37,447 bases of DNA, from the NCBI GenBank assembly GCA_002733125.1, contig NVUM01000002.1:160156-197602 (forward strand). The letters run 5' to 3'. The notes beneath the pieces were generated by a model. That model worked only from the letters and a program-made list of their open reading frames with translations. It was not told where the DNA came from and did no database searches. Below, piece after piece: positions 2,126 through 33,536 of the stretch. The translations under genes were made by a program, and so were the position numbers. Position 1 is the stretch's first letter. Each line of letters starts with the position of its first letter. This DNA comes from Porticoccus sp. (GTDB lineage Bacteria; Pseudomonadota; Gammaproteobacteria; Pseudomonadales; Porticoccaceae).

Positions 2126-3481
2126 CTAGGTCGTATCACGCATGGTCACAAATTCTTCAGCTGCAGTTGGATGAATACCTATCGTGGCATCAAAATCCGC
2201 TTTGGTAGCACCCATTTTTACAGCAATCGCGATTCCCTGGATGATTTCACCGGCACCCTCACCCACCATGTGGCAACCAACAACCCTGTCGTTGTCATTG
2301 ACAACTATCAGCTTCATAAAGACTTTCCCTTCTCCGCCGCCCAGTGTCTCTCTCATCGCTCTGAATCTACTACGATAAATGCGAATGTTATCGCCGTATT
2401 GCCCTCTGGCCTGCTCTTCAGTCATTCCGACAGATGCCGTATTGGGTTGACTGAATACGGCTGTGGGGATGTTTGTATAATCAATCGTCGTGGGGACACC
2501 GGTGACAAGGGTTTTGGTCAGTGCCATACCCTCGTTAATGGCGACGGGCGTTAATTCAACTCGACCAATGACATCACCAATGGCATAGATTGACGGTTCT
2601 GCGGTTTGGAAATAATCATCTACAACGATCGCACCATTTGAGCGGGTTTCAATGGTTGTATTCTCAAGGCCAAGTCCGTCAATGTTTGGGTGGCGACCTG
2701 TCGCATACATCACAAGGCCCGCTTCAATGCTGTCGCCATTATTGAGGGCTGCCCTGAAAAGACCACTATCCATTTTCTCTATAGTCTCGATATCAGTTGA
2801 GAAATGAATGTTAACCCCTTGTTTTTCTATCTCTTCTTTTAGAACTTCACGCACGTCTTGATCGAAACCACGAAGAAACAGGCCGCCGCGATACAACAAG
2901 TGGGTCTCAACGCCGAGCCCATTGAATATCCCGGCAAATTCGATGGCGATATAGCCGCCACCAACGATCACTATACGGTCCGGGAGGCTATCCAGATAAA
3001 AAGCTTCGTTAGATGTAATGGCGTATTCTTTACCGGGAAAGTCCGGCACAAAGGGCGTACCCCCCGTGGCAATCAATATTTTTTTGCATCGGTAAATCTG
3101 GTCATTTACTTCAACAGTATCTGGACCGAGGATTTTGGCCCAACCCTCAACCAGTTCCACACCGGCCTTATCAAGTAAGTTACCGTAGATATCATTAAGC
3201 CGCTGGATTTCACGATTTTTATTATCCCGAAGGGTGGGCCAGTCAAAACTTGACTCACCCACATGCCAACCGAAACCCTTGGCAGTGCGAAATTCCTCGC
3301 GGAACGAAGATGCATACACGAAAAGTTTTTTGGGAACACAGCCGACATTGACACAGGTTCCACCAAGATACTGGGATTCGGCTATCACGACTCGCAGCCC
3401 TTGCTGCGCACACATACGTGCTGTTCTTACTCCGCCAGAACCAGCACCAATCACAAACAGGTCAACATCATGGTCAGCCAT
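2126..3481 (-). CDS. gor: Glutathione-disulfide reductase
   Basis: NADPH-dependent flavoenzyme that reduces glutathione disulfide in the cytosol. The protein is 451 aa, the usual family length. Seen: the FAD-binding [10 protein letters not shown] near residues 12-21, the redox pair in [13 protein letters not shown] (C43 and C48), an NADPH-binding [13 protein letters not shown] near 172-184, the second FAD motif YAIGDV, and the C-terminal GIHPTAAEE bringing His437 and Glu442 to the partner active site. The start is supported by AAGGAG 7 nt before the ATG. It begins 21 bp after cysG and looks like the last gene of the long minus-strand run. The GIHPTAAEE ending and the GSGGVRTAR turn favour Gor over lipoamide or mercuric reductase. 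Confidence 0.97.
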
Positions 3482-26694: not shown

Positions 26695-28860
26695 TTACTG
26701 TAACTTCGCCTTCTGACGATAGGCATGCAACAGGGGTTCAGTATAACCACTGGGCTGAGCACAACCCTTGAACACCAGATCACATGCCGCAGCAAACGCC
26801 ACACTGGCATCAAAGTTTGGCGCCATAGGACGATAATCGGGATCGTCAGCATTTTGGGTATCGACAATCTTAGCCATGCGCTTCATGGTTTCCATCACCT
26901 GATCTTCACCACAAATCCCATGGCGCAACCAGTTGGCTATGTGCTGACTGGAAATACGCAAAGTCGCGCGGTCTTCCATAAGGCCGACATTGTTGATGTC
27001 AGGTACCTTGGAGCAACCAATGCCCTGCTCCACCCACCGAACTACATAACCAAGAATGCCTTGAGCATTGTTGTCCAGTTCTTTCTGAATGTCCTCTGCG
27101 GTCAGCTCACCATCCAGCAGCGGGATGGTCAAAATATCATCCACACTGGCGGGAACCCGATTCGCCAGTTCATTTTGCAGGGCAAAAACGTCTACCTGGT
27201 GATAGTGAATCGCGTGCAATGTTGCCGCAGTGGGTGAAGGTACCCAGGCAGTATTGGCTCCTGCTTTCGGGTGACCTATCTTGGCCACCATCATGTCGGC
27301 CATATGGTCTGGAATCGGCCACATACCCTTGCCTATCTGGGCGCGGCCTTTCAGTCCACAGGCCAGTCCCACATCCACATTCTGGTCTTCGTAGGCGGTG
27401 ATCCACTTCAGGGTTTTCAACTGGCCTTTTGGTGCAAATGGACCCGCTTCCATACTGGTATGGATTTCGTCACCCGTGCGGTCGAGGAAACCTGTGTTAA
27501 TAAAGACCACACGCTCACTGGCAGCGCGAATACACTCTTTCAGGTTTACAGAGGTGCGACGTTCCTCATCCATAATGCCCACTTTCAGGGTATTTCTGGG
27601 CAGAGCAAGGGCATCTTCCACCGCATTGAACAGGTGGTTGGTAAATGCCACTTCTTCCGGACCGTGCATTTTCGGCTTTACGATATAAACACTGCCGGTT
27701 TTACTGTTTCGGACGGCGCTATTGCCTTTCAGGTCATGGATAGCGATCAGGCTGGTGATCATGGCATCCATAATCCCTTCCGGAATTTCATTACCCTCAG
27801 CGTCGAGGATCGCAGGATTGGTCATCAGGTGACCCACATTGCGGACAAACAGCAAGCTGCGGCCGGGTAATACCAGCGTGTCACCGGTAGGCGTGGTGTA
27901 TTCCCGATCGGGGTTCATACGACGCACAATGGTCTTGCCAGCTTTGTTGAGGGTTTCCTCAAGGTCGCCCTTCATCAGACCAAGCCAGTTGCGGTAGACC
28001 AGCGCCTTGTCTTCGGCATCGACAGCGGCTACGGAGTCTTCACAGTCCATGATGGTAGTCAGGGCCGCTTCCATCAGGATATCCTTTACGCCTGCCGCGT
28101 CTGAGGAGCCAATTTGAATGTTTCGATCAATTTGAACTTCCATGTGTATCTTGTTGTTTTCAAATAGAATAGCGCTGGGGTTTTCAGCTGTTCCCCGGTA
28201 CCCGACAAATTTGCCCGGATCGGCAAGACCAACCTGGCTACCGTCGTCCAGAGCAACCTGCAACTGGCCATCAACAACACGGTATTGAGCGGCCTCCTTG
28301 TGGGAGCGGCCGGCAAGCGAGACTGTGTCATCAAGAAGTTTTCGGGCATATGCGATAACCAGGGCACCGCGAACCGGGTTGTACTTCGCCGTCTTATCGG
28401 CGCCACCGGTTTCCGGGAGGACATCCGTTCCATACAGCGCATCGTAGAGGCTGCCCCAACGAGCATTGGCCGCATTCAAGGCAAAGCGGGCATTCATTAC
28501 GGGCACCACCAACTGCGGACCTGCCTGTTGGGCGATTTCGGGGTCAACATTCTCCGTCGTGATCGAGAAATCTTCACCCTCTGGAACCAGATAATCGATT
28601 TCTGTCAGGAAGGCCTTGTAGTCGCCAAAGTTGTGAACCCGACCGCTATGCTGCTGATGCCAGGCATCAATTTGTGCCTGTAGCTGATCACGTTTTTTAA
28701 GCAGTAGACGATTTTTGGGCGCAAATTCATCGATAATTGCGCTGAATGACTGCCAGAAAGCCTCCAGATCAATTCCGGTGCCGGGGATAATGTCGTGTTT
28801 GACGAGGTCGTGAATGGCTTCGGACACCTGAAGTCCACTCACTTGAATACGTTCAGTCAT
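26695..28860 (-). CDS. glcB: Malate synthase G
   Basis: Condenses glyoxylate with acetyl-CoA to malate, the second step of the glyoxylate shunt. At 721 aa it matches the G isoform (723 in E. coli), not the shorter AceB. Seen: [20 protein letters not shown] near residues 127-146, the metal/glyoxylate region [16 protein letters not shown] near 275-290, [33 protein letters not shown] and the catalytic-base region [21 protein letters not shown]. Its promoter region carries the 35-bp element shared with aceA. It is separated from lysR by 120 bp and ends at the terminator shared with the GNAT gene. Confidence 0.98.
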
Positions 28861-28899: not shown

Positions 28900-28905
28900 A
28901 TTGTA
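28900..28905 (-). promoter_or_regulatory. Putative -10 box (TACAAT) of glcB
   Basis: TACAAT reads on the minus strand 39 bp before the glcB start codon. It lies 15 bp after the 35-bp shared element, whose TTGCTA or TGCTAA end falls where a -35 box should be. The aceA promoter has the same layout with TAGAAT. Confidence 0.45.
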
Positions 28906-28920
28906 GGGAACCGAGTGGGG

Positions 28921-28955
28921 ATTTAGCAATTTTATAGGTATTATTTTCGCTATTT
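28921..28955 (-). promoter_or_regulatory. 35-bp conserved element upstream of glcB (copy 1)
   Basis: Read on the minus strand, this matches the element at 29925-29959 at 30 of 35 positions without gaps. Shared blocks are AAATA, CGAAAATAATA, CTATA and GCTAAAT. In this copy ATAG and CTAT form a dyad with a 12-base spacer. It ends 60 bp before the glcB start. It is presumably the binding site of the LysR regulator encoded next door; binding is inference. Confidence 0.72.
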
Positions 28956-28980
28956 ACTCAACGAATGACGTTGACCGTTA

Positions 28981-29919
28981 TCAATCCAGTGTTTTCGCCA
29001 CGTCTGCAATGGTTCGCCGTATCCACTGATGTGCAGGATTGTGCTGCAACAGTGGGCTCCAGGCCATTTTCAGCTCAATTTCCGGAATATCAAAGGGTGG
29101 CTCGAGAATCGCCACATGCGGGTTATCCACCAGTAGCGAGGCAGCCTTGGTAGGCAAAGTAATCACCAGATCATGTAACTCAGCCAACCTCATGGCAGCC
29201 TGATAATGGCGGGTGAACACCCGAATACGACGCTTCTTGCCAATCCTGGTCAGGGCCTCATCGACCCAACCGAGGCGTTGCTCAGCCCCGGGCTCCATGC
29301 CAACCCCGACGCCCATCCCTGTTTTACTGACCCAGACATGGCCGCTATCCAGATAGTTGTCCAGGGTAAAGTCGTGAATAATCGGATTGTGAATACTCGC
29401 CACACAGGAAAACGTATCTCGCCAAATGGTCATCTGATGAAACGACTGCGGCAGGACATCGAAACGGTTAATCACCAAATCAATACTGCCCTGCTCGACA
29501 TCCTGATAACTGATATCGCTGGGCGTCAATACATCAAGTGTTATATTCGGCGCTTCAGAACGCAAACGTCGCATCAGATGCGGCAACAAGGTCGACTCGG
29601 TATAATCGCTGACCGAGATCCTAAAGACCCGGTCAGCCTCAGCTGCATTGAACTCGCGCCGGGGAACAACCGCTTTTTCAACCGACGCCAGTACTTCCCG
29701 GACTATGGGCTGTAGCTGTTCGGCCCGCTCAGTGGGTGTCATGCCATCACTGGTTCTCACCAGCAATGGATCATTGAATAAATCCCGAAGTCGCCTCAGA
29801 CCATTGCTCATGGCTGGCTGACTGATACCCATATTCTCCGCAGCTCTGGTAACATTGCGCTCTTTCAGCAGCACATCCAGATACACCAGCAGATTCAGAT
29901 CGACGTTTCTTATATTCAT
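28981..29919 (-). CDS. LysR-family regulator between glcB and aceA
   Basis: Encodes 312 aa. Seen: an N-terminal winged helix-turn-helix (about 6-65) with the LysR signature ERNVTRAAENMGISQPAMSNGLRRLRDLFNDPLLVR, then a substrate-binding-like effector domain (about 90-305). The wording is closest to the NodD/LeuO-like branch of LysR proteins. It lies upstream of glcB on the same strand and diverges from aceA over 110 bp. A copy of the 35-bp element begins 6 bp from its start codon, so autorepression is likely. Control of the glyoxylate shunt is inferred from position and the shared element; the inducer is unknown. Confidence 0.9.
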   Translation of the reverse strand: MNIRNVDLNLLVYLDVLLKERNVTRAAENMGISQPAMSNGLRRLRDLFNDPLLVRTSDGMTPTERAEQLQPIVREVLASVEKAVVPRREFNAAEADRVFRISVSDYTESTLLPHLMRRLRSEAPNITLDVLTPSDISYQDVEQGSIDLVINRFDVLPQSFHQMTIWRDTFSCVASIHNPIIHDFTLDNYLDSGHVWVSKTGMGVGVGMEPGAEQRLGWVDEALTRIGKKRRIRVFTRHYQAAMRLAELHDLVITLPTKAASLLVDNPHVAILEPPFDIPEIELKMAWSPLLQHNPAHQWIRRTIADVAKTLD

Positions 29920-29924
29920 TTTAA

Positions 29925-29959
29925 AAATACCGAAAATAATAACTATAGATTAGCTAAAT
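29925..29959 (+). promoter_or_regulatory. 35-bp conserved element in the lysR-aceA gap (copy 2)
   Basis: The plus-strand sequence matches the glcB copy at 30 of 35 positions, in the same orientation relative to the controlled gene. The end is 70 bp before the aceA ATG (60 bp in glcB), and the gap to the putative -10 is 14 bp (15 bp in glcB). It begins 6 bp upstream of the lysR start codon, so bound protein would cover the lysR ribosome site region. Confidence 0.74.
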
Positions 29960-29973
29960 TTTAGGTCGATGGC

Positions 29974-29979
29974 TAGAAT
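29974..29979 (+). promoter_or_regulatory. Putative -10 box (TAGAAT) of aceA
   Basis: TAGAAT matches 5 of 6 consensus bases and lies 50 bp before the aceA start. The natural -35 position falls in the TAGCTA end of the 35-bp element and is poor, as is common for activator-dependent promoters. Confidence 0.45.
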
Positions 29980-30029: not shown

Positions 30030-31622
30030 ATGTCAAACTACACCAAAGAGATTGATGCTGTAGCCAAAGTGCGCAATGCCAACAGCACCTGGAGCGCCAT
30101 CAACCCCGAGTCGGCAGCCCGCATGCGTATTCAGAACCGTTTCCGCACTGGTCTGGATATTGCCCGTTATACTGCCAAAATCATGCGTGATGATATGGCA
30201 GCTTATGATGCCGACAGCTCTCAATACACCCAATCCCTGGGTTGCTGGCATGGCTTTATCGGTCAGCAAAAACTGATCGCCATCAAAAAACACCTCAAAA
30301 CCACCAAGAAACGCTACCTGTACCTGTCCGGCTGGATGGTTGCCGCACTGCGTTCCGAGTTTGGCCCCCTGCCGGATCAGTCAATGCACGAAAAAACCTC
30401 TGTTTCTTCGCTGATCGAAGAGCTTTATACATTTCTTCGTCAGGCCGATGCCCGCGAGCTGGATCAGCTGTTCATGGAACTGGATGCTGCCCGCGAAGCC
30501 GGAGATAAAGCAAAAGAAGCCGACCTGTTAAACCAGATCGAGAATTTCGAGACCCACGTGGTACCGATCGTCGCCGATATCGATGCCGGCTTTGGCAACC
30601 CCGAAGCAACCTACCTGTTGGCGAAGAAGATGATCGAAGCGGGCGCGTGCTGTATCCAGATCGAGAACCAGGTATCGGACGAAAAGCAATGCGGCCACCA
30701 GGACGGTAAAGTCACCGTCCCCCACTCCGACTTCCTGGCCAAAATCAATGCCGTTCGCTACGCGTTCCTGGAACTGGGTGTCGACGACGGCGTTATCGTT
30801 GCACGTACCGACTCCCTCGGCGCTGGCCTGACCAAGCAGATTGCTGTGACCAACGAACCTGGCGATCTGGGTGACCAGTACAACAGCTTCCTCGATGGTG
30901 ACTACGTTCAGAGTGCAGAAGATATCCAGAACGGCGATGTGGTCATCAAGGCCAATGGCAAGCTACTCAAACCAAAACGTCTCGCCTCCGGCCTGTTCCA
31001 GTTCCGCAAGGACACCGGTATTGACCGCGTCGTTCTGGACTGTATCACCAGCCTGCAAAACGGCGCCGATCTGCTGTGGATCGAAACCGAAAAACCCCAC
31101 GTTGGCCAGATCGCTGAAATGGTTAACCGGATTCGCGAAGCAGTGCCCAATGCCAAGCTGGTCTACAACAACAGCCCTTCCTTCAACTGGACGTTGAACT
31201 TCCGCCAGCAGGTCTTTGATGCCATGCAGGCTGAAGGCAAAGATGTTTCTGCGTATGATCGCGAAAAACTGATGAGCGTAGACTACGATGAAACCGAGCT
31301 GGCGAAGCTGGCTGACGAGAAAATCCGTACCTTCCAGGCGGACGCGGCTCGCGAGGCGGGTATCTTCCACCACCTGATCACCCTGCCGACCTACCACACG
31401 GCTGCCCTGTCCACCGACAATCTGGCAAAAGGCTACTTTGCAGATCAGGGCATGCTGGCTTATGTGAAAGGCGTCCAACGTCAGGAAATCCGTCAGGGCA
31501 TTGCCTGCGTAAAACACCAGAACATGGCTGGTTCCGATATCGGTGACAACCACAAAGAGTATTTTGCTGGTGAAGCCGCTCTCAAGGCCGGCGGTAAAGA
31601 CAACACGATGAACCAGTTCTAA
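30030..31622 (+). CDS. aceA: Isocitrate lyase (long Pseudomonas-type)
   Basis: Splits isocitrate into succinate and glyoxylate, the first step of the glyoxylate shunt. At 530 aa it is longer than E. coli AceA (434) and matches the about 531-aa type of Pseudomonas. Seen: the catalytic signature KQCGH (219-223, Cys221), preceded by VADIDAGFGNPEATY, then VARTDSLGAGL, LLWIETEKP and the substrate loop VYNNSPSFNWTLNF. The start has AAGGA 7 nt upstream. It diverges from lysR and ends before a strong terminator. It shares a promoter element with glcB. Confidence 0.98.
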   Translation: MSNYTKEIDAVAKVRNANSTWSAINPESAARMRIQNRFRTGLDIARYTAKIMRDDMAAYDADSSQYTQSLGCWHGFIGQQKLIAIKKHLKTTKKRYLYLSGWMVAALRSEFGPLPDQSMHEKTSVSSLIEELYTFLRQADARELDQLFMELDAAREAGDKAKEADLLNQIENFETHVVPIVADIDAGFGNPEATYLLAKKMIEAGACCIQIENQVSDEKQCGHQDGKVTVPHSDFLAKINAVRYAFLELGVDDGVIVARTDSLGAGLTKQIAVTNEPGDLGDQYNSFLDGDYVQSAEDIQNGDVVIKANGKLLKPKRLASGLFQFRKDTGIDRVVLDCITSLQNGADLLWIETEKPHVGQIAEMVNRIREAVPNAKLVYNNSPSFNWTLNFRQQVFDAMQAEGKDVSAYDREKLMSVDYDETELAKLADEKIRTFQADAAREAGIFHHLITLPTYHTAALSTDNLAKGYFADQGMLAYVKGVQRQEIRQGIACVKHQNMAGSDIGDNHKEYFAGEAALKAGGKDNTMNQF

Positions 31623-32729: not shown

Positions 32730-33218
32730 TCACCCCTCTCCAACCAATGGGCTGGTTGACACGATGACGCCATTGTTATCGGCATACACATACTCACCGG
32801 GACGAAAGGTAATACCGCCAAATGTCACCGCCACGTTCAGATCACCAATTCCGCGCTTGTCCGTTTTCAAAGGGATGGCGGCCAGTGCTTGCACACCCAG
32901 ATCCAGTTCTGCCAGCGCATCAACATCGCGGACACAACCGTAAATAATCAATCCCTCCCAGCCATTTCTGACTGCATTTTCAGCAATCATATCGCCCAGC
33001 AAGGCGCGCCTTAGGGAACCACCACCATCCACCACGAGCACCTTTCCATGACCGGGCTTACCGGCACTTTCTTTTACCAGCGAATTGTCCTCGTGACATT
33101 TGACGGTGACAATTTCACCACCAAACATGTCCCGCCCACCATAACTGGCCATCATTGGCTCCATTACCTGCACCAGCTCGGGATAATCGTCGCAAAGATC
33201 AGGGGTTGCAAAAAACAT
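32730..33218 (-). CDS. rraA: Ribonuclease E activity regulator RraA
   Basis: RraA binds and inhibits RNase E in enteric bacteria; homologues can act as 4-hydroxy-4-methyl-2-oxoglutarate aldolases. The product is 162 aa, like E. coli RraA (161). Seen: [69 protein letters not shown] and [15 protein letters not shown] sits 5 nt before the ATG at 33218 and only 2 nt before that at 33221, so 33218 is chosen. A TTG start at 33245 is less likely. The close match to RraA in the central core favours that name over a HMG-aldolase. Confidence 0.92.
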
Positions 33219-33536
33219 CATGACTCCAGCCTGTTGTTCATCCAATATTCATTCCCAGCTGCCCGGATTGATTGGGGTGACGCCGGCAATCGATACTCTC
33301 TCTGCGTGCATGTAAACAACCCCGTGCGCCAACCTGATTTTTGAGATCGGCAAAGTGTCGCCTGGTCAATGAACGCTTCTGGGCGCTGAGATTGCCATGA
33401 TCAGAGACATCGAGCAATAACAGAAATGCCGCGCTTCATGCACAAACCCAGAACAGTCCCTGAAGAATGCTGAAAAAGGGAATAGCAACGTCGAATTAGC
33501 CTGAAACATCCCCACTTCTACCGTAGACTATCGGCC
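33219..33536. other. Divergent intergenic region between rraA and pabB
   Basis: About 318 bases. The right end holds a candidate pabB promoter, given separately. The rest shows no open frame with a family match, no clear terminator and no long inverted repeat. Confidence 0.4.
33501..33529 (+). promoter_or_regulatory. Candidate pabB promoter, possibly leaderless
   Basis: CTGAAA (33501-33506) and TAGACT (33524-33529) have an ideal 17-bp spacer, each matching 4 of 6 consensus bases. The -10 box ends 7 bp before the pabB ATG, which has no Shine-Dalgarno, so transcription could begin at or next to the start codon. Confidence 0.35.

Follow-up and report, generated by a model that had tools for sequence, protein, structure and literature searches.

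The locus described here raises the question of whether two near-identical 35-bp elements, one before each of two glyoxylate-shunt genes, are the operators of the regulator encoded between these genes. The window, by which we mean the whole 37,447-nucleotide stretch of Porticoccus sp. DNA that was analyzed, carries glcB (26695-28860, minus strand), encoding a malate synthase G of 721 amino acids that scores above the cut-offs of NCBIfam PRK02999 and TIGR01345, and aceA (30030-31622, plus strand), encoding an isocitrate lyase of the PRK06498 type (530 amino acids; 1064 bits against a cut-off of 446). Between them lies lysR (28981-29919, minus strand), whose product of 312 amino acids is the likely cognate regulator: it exceeds the Pfam cut-offs for an N-terminal HTH_1 domain (PF00126, 60 bits, cut-off 26.6) and a C-terminal LysR_substrate domain (PF03466, 64.4 bits, cut-off 28), i.e., the domain pair that defines it as a LysR-type protein. 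Among the 25 NCBIfam families shown for this protein, none was above its own cut-off; the best was the BsrA equivalog model (NF050187), for which the regulator reached 169.7 of the 480 bits required. The solved chains nearest to it in sequence, 1uth and 2uye, are labelled LysR-type regulatory protein and are presumably DntR. The nearest named lysR is 99% identical to that of the window, which is Porticoccus-like. The gene past aceA (32730-33245, minus strand) appeared RraA-like by eye, and RraA-like genes also occur near the lysR locus in relatives (confirmed by Pfam at 2899-3393 of locus L233, with similar N-termini in L078 and L104).

The first-pass annotation of this DNA had described the two elements, at 28921-28955 on the minus strand (glcB promoter) and at 29925-29959 on the plus strand (aceA promoter), as a gapless match of 30 in 35 bases amid otherwise unrelated surroundings. 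It had placed them 60 bp (glcB) and 70 bp (aceA) from the start codon, with a -10 box 15 bp (TACAAT, glcB) or 14 bp (TAGAAT, aceA) further on, and overlapping the -35 position. We reproduced these particulars: the coordinates, orientation and identity were exact, a gapless alignment found the surroundings unrelated, a hand count on the sequence returned the same distances to the ATG, the -10 spacings agreed, and the -35 falls within the element at both promoters. The runner-up 35-mer in the window for either copy matched at 21 of 35 positions, and when both intergenic gaps were dinucleotide-shuffled 3000 times, the top 35-mer match was 24, versus the 30 observed.

In the organism's own 2.26-Mb assembly, a 29-base pattern allowing up to 3 mismatches matched exactly the two known elements, and the same pattern reversed, at the same tolerance, matched nothing. 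A sequence model of 62 sites, both window elements included, also returned only these two at E<=10 in this genome, with 150 of the 652 first-look candidates scored and an assembly that is 86.8% complete. A scan for further sites, such as at icd, aceK and fatty-acid genes, had been proposed earlier; the model recovered no such site at E<=10 in this 86.8% complete assembly, and a wider regulon in the organism's own genome was rejected for want of any extra site at that threshold.

The earlier proposal had been staked on the element's presence in the same gaps of related genomes, and when we ran this comparison, the element was there, conserved before both glcB and aceA. Orthologues of lysR commonly adjoin aceA, glcB or both (80 named loci together with the family loci), and an iterated matrix detected sites scoring above 12 in all 49 aceA regions and in 67 of 71 glcB regions (66 of these 67 glcB sites facing the gene), as against 10 of 120 sequences in the reversed control. 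The matrix was trained on these same 120 de-duplicated upstream regions (49 of 61 for aceA and 71 of 84 for glcB), kept after removal of L004 to L016 and of one identical glcB upstream; 12 of the removed loci are the same contigs as named loci, and L004 (from G071) belongs to a relative nearly identical to the window. Cross-training was added: a matrix trained on aceA sites recognized 66 of 72 glcB regions, and one trained on glcB sites recognized 46 of 49 aceA regions (45 facing the gene), both beyond the 99% level obtained with block-shuffled controls; as the training sites had been chosen with the joint matrix, this check is not fully independent. The pattern with 3 mismatches matched in 15 of 97 relatives, 12 of those in the genus, and its backwards control gave one match (G078). 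In 15 named genomes, the 28 matches at E<=1 comprised 12 before glcB, 8 before aceA and 2 in gaps separating lysR from an acyl-CoA dehydrogenase-like gene, the other 6 lying elsewhere (L173, L175, L182, L184, L187 and L188); among the named genomes scanned, G151 had no match at E<=1. No shunt gene was present at the matches of L196 to L200 and L203, and the match in G003 (L034, L199), which sits inside a gene, was taken as chance.

The presence of the site went together with that of lysR. In the family, 69 of the 85 lysR-bearing genomes had the site at E<=0.01 versus 1 of the 27 that lack lysR, and in this exception (G061) the match, at E 0.0024, adjoins an unrelated gene. The sample of the order gave a similar picture, with lysR (E<=1e-70) in 192 of 293 genomes and the site (E<=0.01) in 77, of which 76 carry lysR; put as rates, the site occurred in 76 of 192 genomes with lysR versus 1 of 101 without it (Fisher p 6e-16, a significance that kinship inflates). 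The one exception, G334, has sites with lysR undetected, in an assembly of 660 contigs. Family matches at E<=0.5, found in 101 of 112 genomes including 18 of the 27 without lysR, were too loose to count. Both aceA and glcB are missing as well from 19 of the 27 family genomes without lysR, so that the co-absence partly reflects the disappearance of the entire pathway. Three genomes (G069, G070 and G096) possess a complete glcB, lack lysR and have no site before glcB, a control that is weak because each of these glcB genes lies close behind a same-strand gene. Of two of these loci (L221 and L222, of G069 and G070), the same-strand neighbor in L222 looked glcF-like by eye, and glcB may be part of a glycolate operon there. 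Incomplete genes were left out, namely aceA fragments lacking their 5' end (G049, G073, G084 and G109) and glcB fragments of lysR-less genomes (G074 and G111).

Across the order, 116 of the 192 lysR genomes yielded no model match at E<=0.01, in a search that scored 23 candidates per genome, which makes absence there weak evidence. We inspected 14 genomes, 11 of them lysR-bearing and without a model match. Seven of these 11 had a weaker aceA site (G386, G329, G299, G322, G117, G180 and G115; matrix 17 to 29, the threshold of 17 having been set afterwards), and none of the 11 had a convincing glcB site (best 6.0, on the wrong strand). G118 and G305 scored 11.2 at aceA, and 18.2 and 16.3, respectively, at a second isocitrate lyase gene adjoining lysR, while G407 and G190 had a site at neither aceA nor glcB. 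Of the three inspected genomes with a model match, G112 had sites at both genes, G191 scored 32.3 at aceA and a weak 13.0 at glcB, and G296 had no site within 300 bp of either gene. Given that 7 of the 11 match-less genomes keep a weaker aceA site and none a convincing glcB site, we take the aceA site to be the more widespread feature and the twin arrangement to be a lineage-specific trait. The genomes G305 and G118 (loci L303 and L304) thus have two genes resembling isocitrate lyase, of which the lysR neighbor is of the more distant type and carries the weak element. Another genome, G095 (locus L224), retains a lysR orthologue, lacks aceA and glcB, and has no element, including none before lysR.

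Moreover, the site accompanied aceA when this gene was placed away from lysR, being kept in 11 of 11 family genomes examined, all of which carry lysR. Five genomes of one genus (G087, G090, G091, G092 and G093) had model matches away from lysR, 142-143 bp upstream of the separate aceA, at E 0.015 to 0.081 (G090 with one additional stray match of similar E), and six separate aceA genes picked by the position of aceA (G006, G007, G009, G011, G063 and G088) all had the site, with matrix scores of 24 to 33. For five aceA genes far from lysR in named genomes, E ranged from 0.07 to 0.70, and the support comes from position rather than score. Divergent aceA/glcB pairs with one site for each gene, and with lysR 2.6-7.4 kb off, were seen at all four fetched loci of family f24 (L274, L281, L283 and L285). 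Isocitrate lyase genes less like the window's, standing beside lysR, also had the site (G008, G010, G062, G065, G097 and G145); the other isocitrate lyase subfamily (PRK15063) was confirmed in G010 and G145, the assignment in the remaining four being by weak similarity. Where aceA does not adjoin lysR, 28 of 49 lysR upstreams scored at least 12.

In the Halieaceae variant, lysR is divergent from an acyl-CoA dehydrogenase gene instead of aceA, and a degenerate element lies in the gap (L115, 3058-4827; L104, 3069-4976); these are the two such loci that were scanned with Pfam, and in both the divergent gene encodes an acyl-CoA dehydrogenase. This arrangement suggests that fat oxidation entered the regulon in this variant.

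The element itself has the build of a LysR-type site. Its most conserved columns are A3 T4, A12 T13, A21 T22, A25, T27 and A34 T35, and they include the ends of two overlapping T-N11-A boxes, T13-N11-A25 and T22-N11-A34, offset by 9 bp. Mean information per position is 1.1-1.2 bits in the element versus 0.24-0.62 in the flanks. The best -10 hexamer followed the element at 14 bp for aceA (44 of 48 regions) and at 14 or 15 bp for glcB (64 of 67 regions); in the numbering of a sigma-70-type promoter, the element covers roughly -61 to -27, including the -35, and the -35 hexamers within it are poor (TTGCTA and TAGCTA). In the window, a promoter scan placed the probable glcB -10 hexamer, TACAAT, at 28900-28905 (minus strand) and the weak -35, TTGCTA, at 28924-28929 (minus strand), inside the glcB element. 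The probable aceA -10 hexamer, TAGAAT, at 29974-29979 (plus strand), was read from the sequence and was absent among the matches of the scan.

The aceA-side copy also bears on lysR. The scan called a possible lysR -10 hexamer, TATAGT, at 29942-29947 (minus strand), inside this copy, paired with a possible -35, TCGACC, at 29964-29969 (minus strand); as the scan returned 3 sites versus 1.5 expected from shuffles, the lysR -10 call is weak alone. Position 20 of the element, which makes TATAGT, is T in 30 of 49 aceA-side sites versus 10 of 66 glcB-side sites. In the window, 5 bp separate the lysR start codon from the aceA-side element upstream of it, and exactly this distance recurs in 21 of 45 aceA-adjacent loci. 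The site is thus situated between the regulator and its divergent target, at the regulator's own start, as is typical of LysR-type systems.

Taken together, the co-occurrence with lysR, the persistence of the site at displaced aceA genes and the LysR-type box geometry, together with the overlap with the lysR promoter region, support the earlier claim of a likely LysR-controlled, twin-site regulon of both shunt enzymes. On these grounds, the two 35-bp elements are very probably operators, as predicted from their sequence, at which the LysR-type product of the gene lying between glcB and aceA would act. In the mechanism that we propose, a LysR tetramer would sit on each element, and its grip on the site would change in response to an effector connected with acetyl-CoA or shunt metabolism, upon which RNA polymerase would be recruited to aceA and glcB jointly. 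LysR would probably also hold down its own gene through the aceA-side copy, which lies over the lysR start region and whose closeness to the start codon suggests autoregulation. The binding of LysR, activation rather than repression, and autorepression are what we infer from this arrangement. As for the effector, RipR, likewise of the LysR type, binds isocitrate (PMC9637912), which makes a shunt metabolite plausible in this role; that it might be isocitrate itself is a guess by analogy.

These observations could be accounted for in other ways. LysR could bind the elements as a repressor, keeping the -35 regions of both shunt genes blocked for as long as no signal makes it let go, a reading that draws on the element covering the -35 of both promoters and on the sign of regulation being unreadable from sequence. 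However, the poor -35 hexamers within the element resemble those of activator-dependent promoters, and divergent targets of LysR-type proteins are, as a rule, activated by them; we therefore consider repression unlikely. Alternatively, the element could be the operator of an unlinked regulator of acetate metabolism, e.g., an RpiR-type protein like RccR, with lysR merely a third target. Such a scheme exists in Pseudomonas, where RccR governs aceA, glcB and itself (PMC5489143), and the joint loss of both shunt genes from 19 of the 27 lysR-less family genomes weakens the argument from co-occurrence. Yet 76 of the 77 site-bearing genomes of the order sample carry this lysR orthologue, LysR-type proteins typically recognize T-N11-A boxes, and a spacing of exactly 5 bp to the lysR start recurs (21 of 45 aceA-adjacent loci); we hold an unlinked regulator to be quite improbable. 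The pair might also stem from a recent duplication, or be a small mobile repeat, and have no regulatory role, given that the copies lie 1 kb apart with 30/35 identity. Neither pattern nor model scans found a third copy in the genome, however, and both positions are conserved among relatives, where the orientation and the -10 spacing are fixed; we rejected this explanation, assigning it next to no probability.

A broader scenario can be drawn, which we regard as evenly poised between right and wrong: an undescribed LysR-type switch, present across much of the order, would control the glyoxylate shunt in place of IclR or RccR in many marine gammaproteobacteria, and its regulon would have grown stepwise, from aceA (of two isocitrate lyase subfamilies) to lysR and glcB, and then to the acyl-CoA dehydrogenase of Halieaceae, linking fat oxidation to the shunt. 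Growth on acetate, fatty acids or alkanes hinges on the glyoxylate shunt, and a LysR-type protein with a fixed 35-bp predicted operator at both shunt genes directly names a candidate regulator along with its targets. The element motif could be used in annotating how uncultured marine bacteria metabolize acetate and fat.

A literature search over titles and the beginnings of abstracts found no LysR-type regulator of a glcB-lysR-aceA arrangement, and the shunt regulators in the papers cited here either belong to another family (RccR) or govern many genes (GvmR, BsrA). RccR of Pseudomonas resembles the present system in having sites at aceA, glcB and its own promoter, but it is described as an RpiR-type repressor that senses KDPG and has a larger regulon (aceE, gap, pckA and pntAA), whereas here the regulator is LysR-type and two sites were found in the genome (PMC5489143). 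BsrA (PA2121) of Pseudomonas aeruginosa, the best NCBIfam match of the window regulator, is LysR-type, has a T-N11-A motif and represses TCA-cycle genes; it differs in its 765 bound regions and in that the window LysR scores far below the cut-off of its equivalog model (169.7 versus 480 bits), and the words aceA and glcB are absent from the main text of the BsrA paper (PMC8407307). GvmR of Burkholderia pseudomallei is likewise LysR-type, and its mutant shows lower aceA expression; however, 331 genes are altered in that mutant, and the word "motif" is absent from the main text of the report (PMC5964159). With LysR-type regulators that have a divergent target, the window protein shares the HTH_1 and LysR_substrate domains, T-N11-A boxes upstream of and over the -35, and a site at the regulator's start; what sets it apart is that its predicted targets are the two glyoxylate-shunt genes flanking the regulator gene. 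The system is, in short, a predicted new regulon of a known kind.
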